Assembly (NCBI GenBank): GCA_947497755.1
Contig: CANMHT010000003.1
Location: 124,001 to 188,000, forward strand
Direction: 5' to 3'
Origin: an uncultured Polaribacter sp.
Lineage (GTDB): Bacteria; Bacteroidota; Bacteroidia; Flavobacteriales; Flavobacteriaceae
Length of the DNA stretch: 64,000 nt
The position numbers and the translations under genes were made by a program. Under the pieces are notes generated by a model. That model was not told the origin of the DNA, made no database searches, and saw only the letters and a list, made by a program, of their open reading frames with translations. Shown piece after piece: positions 44,606-50,194 of this stretch. Positions within the stretch are counted from its first letter, which is position 1. Each line of letters starts with the position of its first letter.

Positions 44606-44681
44606 GTACTAAAAACAAACTAGTTATATCAGATTTTCAACTTTTTTAAGTAATTTTATAGGAAATACGAAAAATTACGTA

Positions 44682-44712
44682 TTGTTTTTTGTGATAAAAG
44701 CCTCCAATTTTG
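44682..44712 (+). promoter_or_regulatory. Promoter of the two-protease operon
   Basis: TTG (44682-44684), exactly 20 bases, then CAATTTTG (44705-44712), one base off consensus, 24 bases before the ATG. An inverted repeat AATACG-N8-CGTATT (44664-44683) overlaps the -33 element and is centred near -45, a possible operator. Confidence 0.55.
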
Positions 44713-44736
44713 TGCAATAACCTAAAAACAAACATC

Positions 44737-46173
44737 ATGAAAAAGTCCTCTTTTGTGCTATTTTTTAGCTTTTTTACTACGCTAATTTTTTCCCAACAAT
44801 TCGCTACTGGATTAGATTTTAGTAAAGAAAAATACGAAGCTGTTACAGAAACAGCGCCATTAATTACTAGAAGTGTTACTTCTGTTCCTAAAAGTTTTAG
44901 TTTAAAAGCCTTTGCTCCTACACCAGGAAATCAAGGTAATCAACCTTCTTGTGTTGGTTGGGCTAGCGGTTATGGAGCTAGAACTATTGCCAATGCCATA
45001 AAAAATAATTGGAAGTATAATACCTCAAAAATTAATCAAAACACCTTCTCTCCTGCTTTTGTTTACAATCTAATTAAATTTAAGGGAGATGTTAACTGTA
45101 AAAGAGGTTCTTATATCGCAGATGCGATGAAACTGTTAAATACCTACGGAATTTTACAATTAAAAGACTTTAGTTATAATTCTACTAATTGCACAACAAA
45201 ACCTTCTAATTACGGGTATCAAAAAGCAAAAAATAATACCATTTTATCTTACGAAAGATTAGCCAAATGGGATAATCCTTATAATTTGGTTGGAAAAGTA
45301 AAAAAAGCAATTGCTAATAAAAATCCTGTTGTCATTGGCATGCAAATTCATTCATCTTTCTATAAAGCTAAAGGTGTTTGGAATGGAGATACCACCAAAA
45401 GATTAGGAGGTCATGCTATGGTTGTTGTTGGTTATGACGACAATAAATATGGAGGTGCTTTTGAAATCTTAAATTCTTGGGGAACAAAATGGGGTAACAA
45501 TGGATATATTTGGGTTAAATACAACGATTTTAAAAACTACACCAAAACGGCCTATGTTTTAATTGATAAAACCAAAAAGAAAAACAATACCAATGTTACC
45601 AATTATAATTCTTTAGCTGGTCAGATTACCTTACGATTAAGTAATGGAAGTAATATGTATCCAACATTAACAAATAATGCTTCAAGAAATTTTAATATTG
45701 TAAAAGCTTCAAATACTACTTATAGAATTGATAAAAGCTATACTTCTGGTACTCAATTTAGAATTTATTTAAAAGCTAAACAAAGAGGATATGTGTATTT
45801 AATTGGATATGGTTCTGGAGATAGATCGGTTAATAAACTATATCCTTTTGATAATTTTAGTGATTACTTTAACTACACAAATAGCGAAATTGCTTTCCCA
45901 AATGAAGATTATTTTATAGAGTTTGACTCTAAACCAGGAAGAGATATTCTTTGTGTTTTATATAGCAAAGAAAAATTAAACATCAATAGTATTGTCAATG
46001 CTGCTAGGAATGGATCTGGAGATTTTGTTTCGAATGTAAAAAAAGCCCTACAATATAAAATGTTTAAAGGAAGTGATATCAAATTTGAAAGAAATAATAT
46101 TGCTTTTTCTACAAAAGGAAGCAATAGAAACTCTAAAGTTGTACCTATATTTATAGAAATGAACCATCAATAA
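44737..46173 (+). CDS. Secreted C1 (papain-like) cysteine protease with DUF4384 domain
   Basis: I start at the ATG 44737, which gives a signal peptide (Lys-Lys, hydrophobic core, cleavage near FSQQ at 17-20); an earlier TTG would not. The 478-residue protein has a papain-like domain with Cys72 in NQGNQPSCVGWA, His226 in GGHAMVVVGYDD and Asn246 in ILNSWGTKWGNNG, so the catalytic set is complete. Residues about 300-470 match DUF4384 (FRIYLKAKQRGYVYLIGYG...LYPFDN). There is no visible prodomain of the usual inhibitor type. The caspase-like protease gene begins 10 bases after its stop. Substrate is unknown. Confidence 0.92.
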   Translation: MKKSSFVLFFSFFTTLIFSQQFATGLDFSKEKYEAVTETAPLITRSVTSVPKSFSLKAFAPTPGNQGNQPSCVGWASGYGARTIANAIKNNWKYNTSKINQNTFSPAFVYNLIKFKGDVNCKRGSYIADAMKLLNTYGILQLKDFSYNSTNCTTKPSNYGYQKAKNNTILSYERLAKWDNPYNLVGKVKKAIANKNPVVIGMQIHSSFYKAKGVWNGDTTKRLGGHAMVVVGYDDNKYGGAFEILNSWGTKWGNNGYIWVKYNDFKNYTKTAYVLIDKTKKKNNTNVTNYNSLAGQITLRLSNGSNMYPTLTNNASRNFNIVKASNTTYRIDKSYTSGTQFRIYLKAKQRGYVYLIGYGSGDRSVNKLYPFDNFSDYFNYTNSEIAFPNEDYFIEFDSKPGRDILCVLYSKEKLNINSIVNAARNGSGDFVSNVKKALQYKMFKGSDIKFERNNIAFSTKGSNRNSKVVPIFIEMNHQ

Positions 46174-46183
46174 ACAAACCGTT

Positions 46184-49100
46184 ATGAAAACTAAAACCTT
46201 CTTATTAGCTTTCTTTATATCCCTCGTTTACTGCAATAGTGTCCAAGCACAATTTTTAAAATCTGGTCAAGGTAAATTAATCTATGAAGAAAATTTTTCT
46301 TCAAAAGGTAATTGGCCGGTTTCTACTAATGAAATTAGAAGTTTAGAAGTAAAAAATGGCAAATATTACTTTGAACATTTTAGAGATGGTGAAAATTGGA
46401 ATGTAACCACTAGAACTATTGACTTTGATCCTAAAAAAGATTTTGAAATTGAAATGTCTTTTCAGAAAATATCTGGTCCAAAATCTGCTGCTACTGGGTT
46501 AACTTATGGAACAAAAGATGGAAATAACACCTATCATTTTGTATTAAGTGATAATCAATATCGTATTTCAGAAAAAAAAGATGGAAAGTTTATTCGAATT
46601 AAAAGCTGGTCAACTTCTAGCAATATCAAAACTAGTTATTACGATTATAATAAATTAAAAATTGTAAAAAGAGACAGTAGATTACGTTATTACATCAATG
46701 GTAGCTTAGTTAGCACTCAAGATTTTAAACCTTTTCATAGCAACAAAATTGGAGTTGTAGTTTACAATCAACAAAAAGTTGCTATTGATTATTTTAGAGT
46801 TAGACAACAATCTAGTAGTACTATTGTTAAAAATACCACCACAAAAAAGCCTTCAAAGACAATCTTATTTGAAGGGTTTAATAGCAATCAGAATAATTGG
46901 TCTGAAACCAATAATGAAAGCATAGGTTTAGATATAACAAACGGAGATTACGTAATAAATCATAAAAGAGAAAAAGGCGGATGGTCTTCTACCATTAGTA
47001 GAAAATATGATACTTCTAGAGATTTTAGAATTAGTGCTCAGCTCAAAAAAAGAACTGGAATTCTAAATAATGGATATGGAATCATTTTTGGAAGAGAAGA
47101 TAGTAATAATCAAAATCAATTCTTTATTTCTGGTAGAGGTTCCTTTATGATTAGTGTTCATAAAAATGGAAAAGTAAATTATTTAAAAGAATGGACATCT
47201 TCTAGTCATATTAAAACAGGAAATGGCGCTACCAATATTCTTACTGTAAAAAAGGTTGGAAGCAAACTTCAGTATTTAATTAACAGTAAAATTGTATATA
47301 CTAGTTATTCTTACGAATCTTTTGGAGATAGAACAGGTTTTATTGTTTACGATAGGCAAAAAATTGCTGTTGGCTATTTAAGTATGACTTATTTAGATGA
47401 TAAAGTTACGAATACAAATACTACTGTTACAACAAATACAACATCTGGTAAAAAACTTATTTTCGAAGATGATTTTACTAGTAACAATAACAATTGGGCA
47501 GAACGCTCTGATGACAAATCAGATTTATCTATTAAAAATAATAAATATTACTTTGAACATAAAAGAACATCTGGAGGTTGGTCTACAACCAAACTAATTG
47601 ATATTGATACTTCTAAGGATTTTGAAATTGAATCTAAAATCCTAAAAATTAGTGGTATTAGAAACAACGGTTTCGGATTTACTTTTGGTAGAAAAGATAG
47701 CGATAATCAATTTGTATTTACTATTACTTCTAATGGTTCCTACTCAATTGATCAATATAAAGATGGTAAATACACAGCCATTAAAGACTGGACCAAATCT
47801 TCACATATAAAAACAGGAAATTACGCATACAATACCTTAAAAATAAAAAAAGAAAGGGGTTTTATTAAGTTTTATGTAAACGATAGATACCTAACTTTAT
47901 ATACACACAAGCCTTTTATGGGGAATCGTTTTGGGTTTGTTGTGTATAATAACCAAAAAATTGCCATTGATGATTTAAAAATTAAGTATATCAATCAAAA
48001 AGATACTTATAGACCAACTATTGTAGCCAATGGAGAAAGTGTATTGACAGAATACTTTACTGATAATAAAAATAGCTGGCCTGTTGGAGAATTTACCAAT
48101 AGAACCATTTCTGTTGACAAAAGTCACTACAATTTCGAATTCAAAGAAAGCGGTGGCTGGGGTGTTAATATTCCAAAAACCATAGATACTTCTAGAGATT
48201 TTGAAATAAAAACTACTATTAAGAAGACAAGTGGTGTTAACAACTATTCTTATGGGTTACAATGGGGTAAAGATGGAAAAAACTCTTTTAGATTTTACCT
48301 AACAGGAAATGGATATTACAAAGTTGCCAGAGTTGTTGATGGAAAAGAAGAATTGATTAAAAAGTTTACGCTTTCATCAGCAATTAAAAAAGGAAATGGA
48401 GTTAACAATACTTTACGAATAGTTAAACAAGGTGATAATTATAAATATTATGTAAATGATACCTACTTAACAGAATCTAACTTTGAATCTTTTTACGGAC
48501 ATCGATTAGGTTTTGTTGTTTTTAACAAACAAAAAATTAGTGTTGACAATCTTTATATTAAATACTTAAAGAAATCCAACAATACTATCGTTACTACCAA
48601 TACCTTAAAAGTACCATTAAACGAGAGCTTCTCAAACAATACTAATGGGTGGAATTTAACTGATAATAGTAATATAAAAACTAGAATTAGCAATGGTAAG
48701 TTATATGTTAATAGTCATTTAGATAAAGGCGGAGCTTTTATTAGTAAAAAAGTGGGAATAGATACAAGTAGAGATTTTATTATAGAAACTTCTGTAACAA
48801 GATTAACCAGTAATTCTAAGAGTCCAATTGCCTTTGTTTTTGGTAGAAAAAATAACACCAACGAATTTGATTTATTTTTATCAAGTAGCGGAAGTTATTT
48901 ATTGAGAAAGTTAAAGAATGATAACTCAGAAAAGTTGATTCCTTGGACATCTTCTTCTACGTTAAATACACAGACATACCAGGCAAATAAAATTAAGATT
49001 GTTAAATCTGGAAATCTGTTACGTATTTATATCAATGATCAATATGTAAATGAAGCTCCATATACTGAGTTTTTTGGAAACTATATGGGATTTAGTGTTT

Positions 49101-50194
49101 ATGACAAGCAAGAAATCTCTATAGATTATTTAAATGTCACCTACCCTTCTGCTAGTTTTAATACACCGCCAAAAGTTGTTATTACAGAACCTGTAGTACA
49201 ACGTGGCTTTAAAATTGTAAAAACCAAAAGGATTTTAGTAAAAGGAAAAGCTACAGATAAAGATGGTATTTACGAAGTAATTATTAATGGTGTAGATGCC
49301 AATATTTCTGATGATGGTAGTTTTACAGCTAATGTGCCATTAAAAATTGGTACTAATGACTTAATTGTAAAAGCAACCGATTTAAAACAAGCTTCTTCTA
49401 CCAAAAAGTTTACAATTAAACGTAAATCTCCAGATGTGGTTGATGATCCTGTAGTTGTAAAAAAAGATAAAAAAATCAATACTGGTTTTGGTAAATACTA
49501 TGCTTTACTTATTGGAGTAAGTGATTATGGAGATGGTGCTATTACAGATTTAGGAGGTTTACCAACCAAAGATGCTAAAGACTTAGCCAATGTATTAATT
49601 AATAAATACAATTTTGAAAGAGAAAATGTTGTGATGCTTAACAATAGTCCAAAAGCCAATGATATTATTAAAGAGTTTAGTAAGCTTAAAAAGAAAATCA
49701 CAGAGAAAGATAATTTATTAGTTTTCTATGCCGGACATGGAATTTATGATGAAGTAAGTCAGGTTGGTCATTGGTTACCTTCTGATGCTGATATGGAATA
49801 TGAATTAAATCTGATTAGTAATTCTCAAGTTGTAGACTTTTTAAAGGCAATTCGCTCTAAACATACATTATTAATTTCTGATGCTTGTTTTAGTGGAAGT
49901 ATTTTTAAGACAAGATCTTTTGAGAAATCACCAAAATCAATTCAGAAAAAATATGAATTAACAAGTAGAAAAGCAATTACTAGCGGAACCTTAAAAACAG
50001 TTCCAAATAAAAGTATGTTCTTAAAATATTTATTAAAAAGATTAGAAACTAACACAAATTCTTATTTATCTGCTAGGCAATTGTTTAATAGAATTGAAGA
50101 ACCTGTGATGAATAATAGCCCAAATACTCCACAATATGGAACCATTTACGGAATAGGAGATGAAGGTGGAGATTTTATCTTTATCAAAAATTAA
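46184..50194 (+). CDS. Secreted caspase-like protease with five tandem repeats and an Ig-like domain
   Basis: This 1336-residue protein has a signal peptide (to about residue 22, VQAQ). Five repeats of about 190-198 residues follow, beginning near residues 29, 225, 423, 618 and 806; each has a FxENF or FxDxF start, a W-P/W-S turn, a GFxFGRKD-like stretch, and NRFGFVVYNxQKIAIDxLxVxY at the end. They look like concanavalin-type or 3-keto-disaccharide-hydrolase-type beta-sandwiches that could bind glycans; this is inference. An Ig-like domain (about 995-1085) leads to a C14 caspase-like domain (about 1104-1330) with His1185 in FYAGHG and Cys1235 in SDACFSGS. It is the second gene of the two-protease operon. 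Confidence 0.92.
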   Translation: MKTKTFLLAFFISLVYCNSVQAQFLKSGQGKLIYEENFSSKGNWPVSTNEIRSLEVKNGKYYFEHFRDGENWNVTTRTIDFDPKKDFEIEMSFQKISGPKSAATGLTYGTKDGNNTYHFVLSDNQYRISEKKDGKFIRIKSWSTSSNIKTSYYDYNKLKIVKRDSRLRYYINGSLVSTQDFKPFHSNKIGVVVYNQQKVAIDYFRVRQQSSSTIVKNTTTKKPSKTILFEGFNSNQNNWSETNNESIGLDITNGDYVINHKREKGGWSSTISRKYDTSRDFRISAQLKKRTGILNNGYGIIFGREDSNNQNQFFISGRGSFMISVHKNGKVNYLKEWTSSSHIKTGNGATNILTVKKVGSKLQYLINSKIVYTSYSYESFGDRTGFIVYDRQKIAVGYLSMTYLDDKVTNTNTTVTTNTTSGKKLIFEDDFTSNNNNWAERSDDKSDLSIKNNKYYFEHKRTSGGWSTTKLIDIDTSKDFEIESKILKISGIRNNGFGFTFGRKDSDNQFVFTITSNGSYSIDQYKDGKYTAIKDWTKSSHIKTGNYAYNTLKIKKERGFIKFYVNDRYLTLYTHKPFMGNRFGFVVYNNQKIAIDDLKIKYINQKDTYRPTIVANGESVLTEYFTDNKNSWPVGEFTNRTISVDKSHYNFEFKESGGWGVNIPKTIDTSRDFEIKTTIKKTSGVNNYSYGLQWGKDGKNSFRFYLTGNGYYKVARVVDGKEELIKKFTLSSAIKKGNGVNNTLRIVKQGDNYKYYVNDTYLTESNFESFYGHRLGFVVFNKQKISVDNLYIKYLKKSNNTIVTTNTLKVPLNESFSNNTNGWNLTDNSNIKTRISNGKLYVNSHLDKGGAFISKKVGIDTSRDFIIETSVTRLTSNSKSPIAFVFGRKNNTNEFDLFLSSSGSYLLRKLKNDNSEKLIPWTSSSTLNTQTYQANKIKIVKSGNLLRIYINDQYVNEAPYTEFFGNYMGFSVYDKQEISIDYLNVTYPSASFNTPPKVVITEPVVQRGFKIVKTKRILVKGKATDKDGIYEVIINGVDANISDDGSFTANVPLKIGTNDLIVKATDLKQASSTKKFTIKRKSPDVVDDPVVVKKDKKINTGFGKYYALLIGVSDYGDGAITDLGGLPTKDAKDLANVLINKYNFERENVVMLNNSPKANDIIKEFSKLKKKITEKDNLLVFYAGHGIYDEVSQVGHWLPSDADMEYELNLISNSQVVDFLKAIRSKHTLLISDACFSGSIFKTRSFEKSPKSIQKKYELTSRKAITSGTLKTVPNKSMFLKYLLKRLETNTNSYLSARQLFNRIEEPVMNNSPNTPQYGTIYGIGDEGGDFIFIKN

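Follow-up and report, generated by a model that had tools for sequence, protein, structure and literature searches.

We analysed a 64,000-nucleotide stretch of DNA (hereafter the window, meaning the whole of it) from the 3.70 Mb genome of an uncultured Polaribacter sp. (GCA_947497755.1, contig CANMHT010000003.1, positions 124,001 to 188,000). It carries a two-gene unit in which a gene for an exported papain-like protease with a DUF4384 domain (C1-DUF4384) is followed by a gene for an exported protein made of tandem repeats, an Ig-like domain and a caspase domain. The pairing of C1-DUF4384 and caspase genes is well supported across genomes: the C1-DUF4384 protein is the constant partner, and the caspase protein is the variable one, with a swapped scaffold. 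Alignments further show that in pairs with the C1 gene first, both partners usually carry a partner-matched motif, R-[NG]-[FLI]-x-[VIA], which may be a cleavage site.

Adjacency of the two genes is conserved. Among named genomes, a same-strand caspase open reading frame (ORF) lay within 300 bases of 52 of 79 C1-DUF4384 genes; these come from the best 80 of 492 confirmed loci, a set biased toward the window's kind. The caspase gene was downstream in 29 of these pairs and upstream in 23, with a gap of at most 21 bases in 38 of 52, as measured from mechanically chosen ORF starts. Counted by gene rank from the C1 gene, caspases took 54 of 150 places at rank 1, 6 of 131 at rank 2, 1 of 124 at rank 3 and 0 of 371 at ranks 4 to 10. 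Seven checked genomes of the window's family that have a pair gave a single caspase match each, which was the neighbour of the C1 gene (caspase profile, 51 genomes). The rank distribution, the 52/79 adjacency and these one-caspase genomes rule out a chance neighbourhood. An earlier note, made by a model from the letters of the window, had treated the two proteases as a unit; conserved adjacency supports this and shows that the unit is no local oddity.

Records with pairs belong to Bacteroidota and also to Chlorobiota, Pelagicoccus and Puniceicoccaceae (which we take to be Verrucomicrobiota), Rhodobacteraceae and Aestuariivita (presumably Alphaproteobacteria), and Sulfurovum; since some of these records are metagenome bins, the taxon labels may err. 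In the scan of named genomes, the nearest relatives of the window's C1 gene came from uncultured Flavobacteriaceae, Polaribacter, Lutibacter and Tenacibaculum. No C1-caspase fusion was present among the ORFs of 160 sources.

Further surveys covered 149 genomes of the family (the window's included), 395 of the order and 345 of the class. In the family, gene 1 was matched in 16 genomes, and besides the window's own genome one other, of the same genus, had a window-type pair, with four repeats (G131); in three others (G012, G105, G114) the C1-DUF4384 gene was directly followed by a caspase protein of another type. Of 51 C1-DUF4384 genes taken from the three surveys, again with the window, 11 had a caspase within 300 bases and 14 had one anywhere within the stretch; C1 genes lacking DUF4384 were caspase-paired in 4 of 22 cases. 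The difference between 52/79 and 11/51 arises largely because the C1 tree splits off a caspase-free clade. In this tree of 130 C1-DUF4384 proteins (C1 domains), one clade of 34 had no caspase neighbour, and 67 of the other 96 had a same-strand caspase within 3 kb; the caspase-neighbour label changed 13 times, compared with 43.7 on average after shuffling. These counts leave out ORFs whose place was taken by a longer overlapping ORF (L138, L151, L157), and L206 is cut ahead of DUF4384. The gene-neighbourhood search suggested in the earlier note, which asked if the genes stand apart in most genomes, therefore comes out in favour of pairing for the 96 but not for the clade of 34.

That clade (L127-L165) is probably anchored at the membrane, since 29 of its members begin with an MPIRM-like sequence, end in a Gly-rich tail and are hydrophobic around residues 40-70, and four resemble lipoproteins. 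A cytosolic location is accordingly improbable.

The caspase partners fall into three branches: class I (mostly Bacteroidales, gene usually ahead of C1), class II, and class III, which includes the window. A G-H-G sequence is kept in 68 of 71 partner caspases, and those 68 entered the caspase tree; the alignments show catalytic residues kept in nearly all partners. The window's class is built of an exchangeable repeat scaffold, an Ig-like domain and a caspase domain. Partner scaffolds recognised by Pfam were TPR (L122, L214, L166), MORN (L203), WG with Sel1 (L221), WG alone (L241) and WD40 (L258), and the L255 partner showed OmpA with sub-threshold propeller models. In class II, WD40 exceeded the cut-off in four of nine scanned proteins, the remaining five giving sub-threshold propeller matches. 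LamG-like repeats of the partners had no Pfam match and varied from 2 to 5 copies, and Glucodextran_B exceeded the cut-off in the window, L122 and L214.

In G666 (L259, L122), one C1 gene adjoins nine consecutive caspase genes; in G794 (L260, L261), the single C1 gene is followed after 2.8 kb by four caspases in a row, and a fifth lies about 12 kb beyond these. Distances in the C1 and caspase trees correlated (r = 0.64 over 64 pairs; none of 2000 shuffles above 0.10), partly because species share descent. The earlier note had suggested that the repeats hold the caspase at a surface or glycan. As a general role this was rejected because the scaffold is exchanged among relatives, which replace the repeats by TPR, beta-propeller, MORN or WG units. 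In one genome (G781, L169) a DUF4384 match, below cut-off, was seen on the caspase and none on the adjoining C1 protein; DUF4384 seems to have moved between the partners there.

In the window, both ORFs are uninterrupted and intact, and gene 2 starts 10 bases past the stop of gene 1. The start of gene 1 is best taken as ATG 44737; the alternative, TTG 44710, overlaps the promoter-like stretch. The features of the unit are as follows.

44665..44682, + strand: conserved palindrome ATACG-N8-CGTAT, candidate operator of the pair (alignment of 9 upstream regions)
44681..44712, + strand: promoter-like ATTG-N20-CAATTTTG (read from the sequence)
44737..46173, + strand: gene 1, exported C1-DUF4384 protease (P0001, 478 aa)
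44884..45576, + strand: papain-like catalytic domain (xylellain match; limits approximate)
44950-44952, 45412-45414 and 45472-45474, + strand: catalytic codons of C1, Cys72, His226 and Asn246 (codons read)
45685..45705, + strand: shared motif in the C1 partner, R317-NFNIVK, in a loop directly ahead of the Pfam DUF4384 match
45739..45972, + strand: DUF4384 domain (PF14326, 2.8e-7)
46184..50194, + strand: gene 2, exported repeat-Ig-caspase protein (P0002, 1336 aa)
46268..46819, + strand: repeat 1, likely a LamG/concanavalin-like beta sandwich by its likeness to repeats 4 and 5
46853..47398, + strand: repeat 2
47453..47998, + strand: repeat 3
48032..48577, + strand: repeat 4 (sequence comparison and model)
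48605..49156, + strand: repeat 5 (sequence comparison and model)
49169..49426, + strand: Ig-like domain (Glucodextran_B, Pfam 1.8e-9)
49202..49222, + strand: shared motif in the caspase partner, R1007-GFKIVK, in the Ig-like domain
49499..50113, + strand: caspase domain (PF00656, 3.5e-17; metacaspase-4, Z 21.9)
49736-49738 and 49886-49888, + strand: catalytic codons of the caspase, His1185 and Cys1235 (codons read)

The domains and catalytic residues named in the earlier note were located correctly in both genes. The product of gene 1 consists of a hydrophobic N-terminus, a papain-like domain (Peptidase_C1, 2.2e-14) and DUF4384 (31 bits against a gathering score of 27). It shows the papain fold, the Cys-His-Asn residues and the oxyanion Gln of peptidase family C1; Q66 (the Gln), C72, H226 and N246 were kept in 67 of 67 aligned caspase-adjacent C1-DUF4384 proteins, the window's included. 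Its model was of high confidence (mean predicted local distance difference test, pLDDT, 91.8; below 50 at residues 318-322), and residues 22-279 superposed on xylellain (3ois) with Z 28.7 and a root-mean-square deviation of 2.0 over 238 residues. VIA-align listed structure matches for the catalytic domains and none for DUF4384. Two non-catalytic cysteines, C121 (45097-45099) and C152 (45190-45192), are present without exception in the 67 caspase-adjacent C1 proteins and the 34 members of the anchored clade; they probably form a disulfide, which would fit an exported enzyme. The N-termini of both proteins have hydrophobic cores that fit signal peptides by a crude hydropathy score, as the earlier note had proposed. 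Neither protein matched a type IX secretion C-terminal sorting domain (NCBIfam, which we take to include such models; E up to 0.1).

Behind the hydrophobic N-terminus of the gene 2 product stand five tandem repeats with a mutual identity of 28-44%, the Ig-like domain and the C-terminal caspase domain. The repeats gave no Pfam family above cut-off. Pfam did not report Peptidase_C14 on the full-length protein; on the last 351 residues (986-1336) it gave PF00656 at 3.5e-17. With the caspase fold and the dyad of H1185 and C1235, the protein has the hallmarks of peptidase family C14 and of orthocaspases. The model of its last 724 residues reached a mean pLDDT of 77.1 and a predicted template modelling score (pTM) of 0.42; one low-confidence stretch covers residues 1006-1008, and there are eight others. 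Top matches listed by Foldseek for the two-repeat model (pTM 0.42) included a ConA-like glycosidase, galectins and laminin LG domains (E 4e-13 to 4e-8). Of the five beta-sandwich-like repeats claimed in the earlier note, the tandem repetition therefore stands, and the LamG/concanavalin-like fold is likely but not firm in view of the model scores and the galectin/laminin LG resemblance. In another protein (L059:7757-9628, G003), the same LamG-like repeat is flanked by a MORN-like repeat and a trypsin-like protease domain; the repeat module therefore also occurs in another protease class.

Two acidic residues aligned with the metacaspase S1 pocket were invariant in 20 aligned caspases. By the role of this pocket in metacaspases, such acids would predict cutting after Arg or Lys. 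The 20 were drawn from caspases having G-H-G, so their His column is invariant by choice; in a set of 32 caspase ORFs, 26 had G-H-G.

The motif shared by the partners takes several forms. RNLVVEDD-like stretches occur in the two proteins of many class II pairs, the Mucilaginibacter pairs have RGLKVV in both, and one Saprospiraceae pair has RGIKAV and RGIQAV. The pattern R[NG][LFWIM]x[VIAT] was scored in 55 testable pairs, defined by a caspase with G-H-G after residue 150 and D-A/S-C after that; L234 has the motif in its C1 but was dropped, the caspase ORF closest to it being a fragment of 126 residues. Both proteins carried the pattern in 33 of 55 pairs (caspase 46/55, C1 33/55), every motif-bearing C1 thus having a motif-bearing caspase. 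By class, it was present in 1 C1 and 10 caspases of 22 (class I), 10 and 13 of 14 (class II) and 22 and 24 of 27 (class III), mostly at a nearly constant distance before the catalytic His. The motif also went with gene order: the C1 protein had the motif in 32 of 41 pairs with C1 first and in 2 of 26 with the caspase first.

Motif segments of true partners resembled each other more than those of shuffled partners (21.2 vs 10.6, 0/5000 as high). Shuffling within two groups, defined by a rule that itself uses motif and protein length, left a smaller difference (21.2 vs 19.3, 10/5000 as high). The motif was present in 0 of 34 C1s of the anchored clade. In unpaired C-terminal-type caspases, it was found 60-260 residues before G-H-G in 0 of 14, although only 3 of 10 scanned have a Pfam Ig-type match; these controls came from the higher-scoring unpaired matches (20 stretches, one of them, L268, without a caspase ORF). 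All caspases of the G666 (9/9) and G794 (5/5) clusters carry the motif, and three unpaired G794 caspases are without it. Outside the anchored clade, three C1s have the motif but no caspase (L192, L227, L237), and in each case a contig end cuts the sequence short: the truncated ORF next to C1 in L237 shares 52% identity with a propeller-caspase protein, a 233-residue cut ORF in L227 matched nothing, and in L192 the C1 gene itself is cut.

In the window's own genome, a six-frame DNA pattern for R[NG]Fx[IVM]VK hit 11 places, of which two encode the peptide and belong to these two genes (decoded by hand). No third gene with the window's version was found by this whole-genome search, in which looser versions were left unsearched, and no third substrate is therefore proposed. 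Since the DUF4384 and Ig-like profiles are unlike (hhalign probability 1.3%), the motif as a relic of a common domain was ruled out.

Regulation of the unit was approached through its upstream region. The earlier note had called the promoter well formed; a promoter-like stretch is present, but it is only moderately close to the Bacteroidetes consensus, TTTG-N19-TAnnTTTG, and a sigma-70 scan was uninformative (40 sites vs 38.3 expected). The palindrome that overlaps it, on which that note was silent, reads ATACGTCAAATGACGTAT in several relatives. A scan of 159 surveyed loci (2.37 Mb) gave 13 exact matches of the palindrome, each of them directly ahead of a C1-DUF4384 gene; a class II locus (L047) and a member of the caspase-free group (L235) are among the 13. 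Near palindromes with one or two mismatches occur, for example, in L049, L119, L190 and L237; none worth naming was found in L045, L046, L121, L122 and L245.

The own genome has the exact palindrome at four places: at this operon, twice in one locus, and once beside a transposase-like gene (by eye). The two-palindrome locus (C12:92646 and C12:94253, the same as L302:6647 and L302:8254) contains genes for a TPR histidine kinase and for a regulator (C12:98464-99117) that shares 79% identity with a G397 protein having a receiver and a GerE (NarL/LuxR-type) domain. G397 has identical palindromes ahead of the pair and some 50 bases ahead of the regulator, and two looser ones in the regulator locus. 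Three genomes of the same genus without the C1 gene (G218, G348, G442) have neither a strict palindrome nor a close intact regulator; G442 retains a broken 67-residue regulator stretch (65% identity). By this sharing of the palindrome, the protease operon and the two-component locus form a candidate envelope regulon. The two-palindrome locus also encodes several exported-looking proteins without Pfam matches.

The reading we favour, to which we give somewhat less than an even chance, is an exported protease relay: the caspase, specific for Arg, would cleave both its own chain and the C1 protease at the common motif. The scaffold would sense or anchor in the periplasm. Once engaged, the caspase, an orthocaspase with predicted Arg/Lys specificity, would cut after the motif Arg both in its own pre-caspase segment and in the C1 partner. 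Cleavage would release each catalytic domain, the caspase from the scaffold and that of C1 from DUF4384, with the C1 protease as common executioner. In Polaribacter-type bacteria, a NarL-type response regulator might bind the upstream palindrome and so switch the operon. The motif is taken as a caspase cut site because of its invariant Arg at the P1 place, the flexible loops in which it lies, the preference of orthocaspases and the invariant acids aligned with the S1 pocket. The earlier note had raised the processing of one protease by the other, an idea that the shared Arg motif would favour indirectly. A broader version, which we put forward with more doubt, is that interchangeable sensor-scaffold orthocaspases, up to nine per cluster, feed one papain-like executioner via a co-varying Arg tag under a dedicated two-component regulator, as a bacterial initiator-executioner analogue assembled from two unrelated cysteine-protease clans.

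The direction of cutting could be the reverse, with the single C1 protease as activator, cutting itself and the caspases at the motif, and the varied-scaffold caspases as effectors. A constant C1 beside nine or five motif-bearing caspases would suit a common activator, and the C1 model aligns with xylellain including the N-terminal stretch. Papain-like enzymes, however, are usually sensitive to the P2 residue, and an invariant P1-type Arg with variable preceding residues fits an orthocaspase better; this direction appears unlikely to us. The motif might also remain uncut and act as a docking strand by which both proteins bind a common third partner, or each other, and the two proteases are held together. 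The alternating hydrophobic pattern past the Arg could extend a beta sheet, the presence of the motif twice in most class II caspases would suit binding, and both motif loops are poorly ordered in the single-chain models (C1 318-322; the caspase stretch covering 1006-1008). Nevertheless, a basic-specific protease would use just such a site, an Arg with a small or polar residue after it in a flexible loop, and no third neighbour recurred across classes by eye (no clustering test was made); we regard docking, too, as improbable. The least probable of these readings, in our estimate, is that the two periplasmic proteases share regulation but act independently, in degradation or housekeeping, and are adjacent through shared use only. 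The palindrome upstream of C1 in L235 and the C1-DUF4384 genes beyond the anchored clade that have no caspase neighbour (29/96) are in line with this; the partner-matched motif, the retention of pairs across distant caspase branches and both gene orders, and the caspase clusters with a single C1 speak against it.

Several observations weigh against the proposed relay. The motif was found by inspection of alignments and its pattern was fixed afterwards, and the counts are not independent because the sequences are related. The motif is scarce in class I (one C1 and 10 caspases in 22 pairs), which must therefore work otherwise, and it is missing in the C1s of 4 of 14 class II and 5 of 27 class III pairs. 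Class II caspases usually carry it twice, which is odd for a single switch site; none of nine gave a Pfam Ig-type match, their pre-caspase segment being placed by alignment only. A few caspase-matching neighbour ORFs are without G-H-G (3 of 71 partners, which are short ORFs or pieces, and also L154). The 29 C1-DUF4384 genes just mentioned lack a same-strand caspase within 3 kb; seven of them have less than 0.8 kb of sequence downstream, and in L237 the next gene is cut. A group of seven among the 29 (L045, L046, L121, L235, L240, L245, L254) has no caspase at all in the stretch. The two scanned among these, L045 and L046, have a small protein and an M48-type metalloprotease instead, and C1-DUF4384 may therefore be a general partner of exported proteases. 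Finally, G131 lacks a close orthologue of the regulator (best match 37%), although it has the pair and a palindrome.

As regards the neighbourhood, a defence system was considered. Among PADLOC models, a generic caspase model matched alone (5.3e-12), and the window's downstream ion-channel-like gene is kept in 10 of 13 close-relative loci (L179-L191; by eye), which makes a mobile island unlikely. In several relatives (L044, L120, L179-L181, L185-L187), a protein of about 650 residues is encoded just upstream of the pair (L044:10764-12716; DUF3857 above cut-off, weak transglutaminase match); it is not present in the window.

The component families are known. In the literature searched, no account of such an exported C1-caspase pair or of its motif was found (subscription papers and supplements lay outside the search), and both appear to be undescribed there. 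For the C1 domain, the closest known fold is that of xylellain-type C1A peptidases, in which the chain matched is a papain-type domain alone, whereas the window adds DUF4384 and a caspase partner. MALT1 paracaspase has the same caspase fold (Z about 20) and prefers a basic P1 residue; the matched entries refer in their titles to a caspase-IG3 unit, whereas the Ig-like domain of the window is of Glucodextran_B type and stands before the caspase.

A comparable two-gene design, the EACC1-caspase systems, is reportedly the work of Kaur et al. 2020. The window's caspase scored 73.4 bits with the NCBIfam model of the EACC1-type caspase, below the cut-off of 140, and its 5' gene encodes C1-DUF4384 in place of a single-transmembrane EACC1 protein. 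As far as the accessible text describes them, EACC1 systems consist of two adjacent genes, with a constant single-transmembrane EACC1 partner and an N-terminal caspase with very diverse fused domains (PMC7159879). The likeness lies in a constant component beside a caspase with diverse fusions; here, in contrast, the constant partner is an exported C1-DUF4384 protein, the caspase is mostly C-terminal and both proteins are exported.

Orthocaspases are described, in the text accessible to us, as cutting after positively charged residues (PMC6426788). The orthocaspase MaOC1 cuts an antitoxin encoded by the neighbouring gene, most likely in a stretch with basic residues, and thus acts on a neighbour's product as proposed here; its target belongs to a toxin-antitoxin module and is not a second protease, and the accessible text describes no site common to both proteins (PMC7935541). 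A 2012 survey of prokaryotic metacaspase operons likewise reported caspase homologues in operons, with proteolysis domains (unspecified) in 23 of 217, possible N-terminal signal-peptide helices and WD40 architectures; the word papain is absent from its main text, and the accessible passages contain no C1-caspase pair or shared motif (PMC3501461).

Caspase homologues are common in Bacteroidota, and few have known substrates. If the motif is a cut site, many exported orthocaspases would gain a predicted substrate and its exact site at once. The C1-DUF4384 family would gain a function, and the design of a constant partner plus variable caspase known from EACC1 systems would reach the cell envelope.

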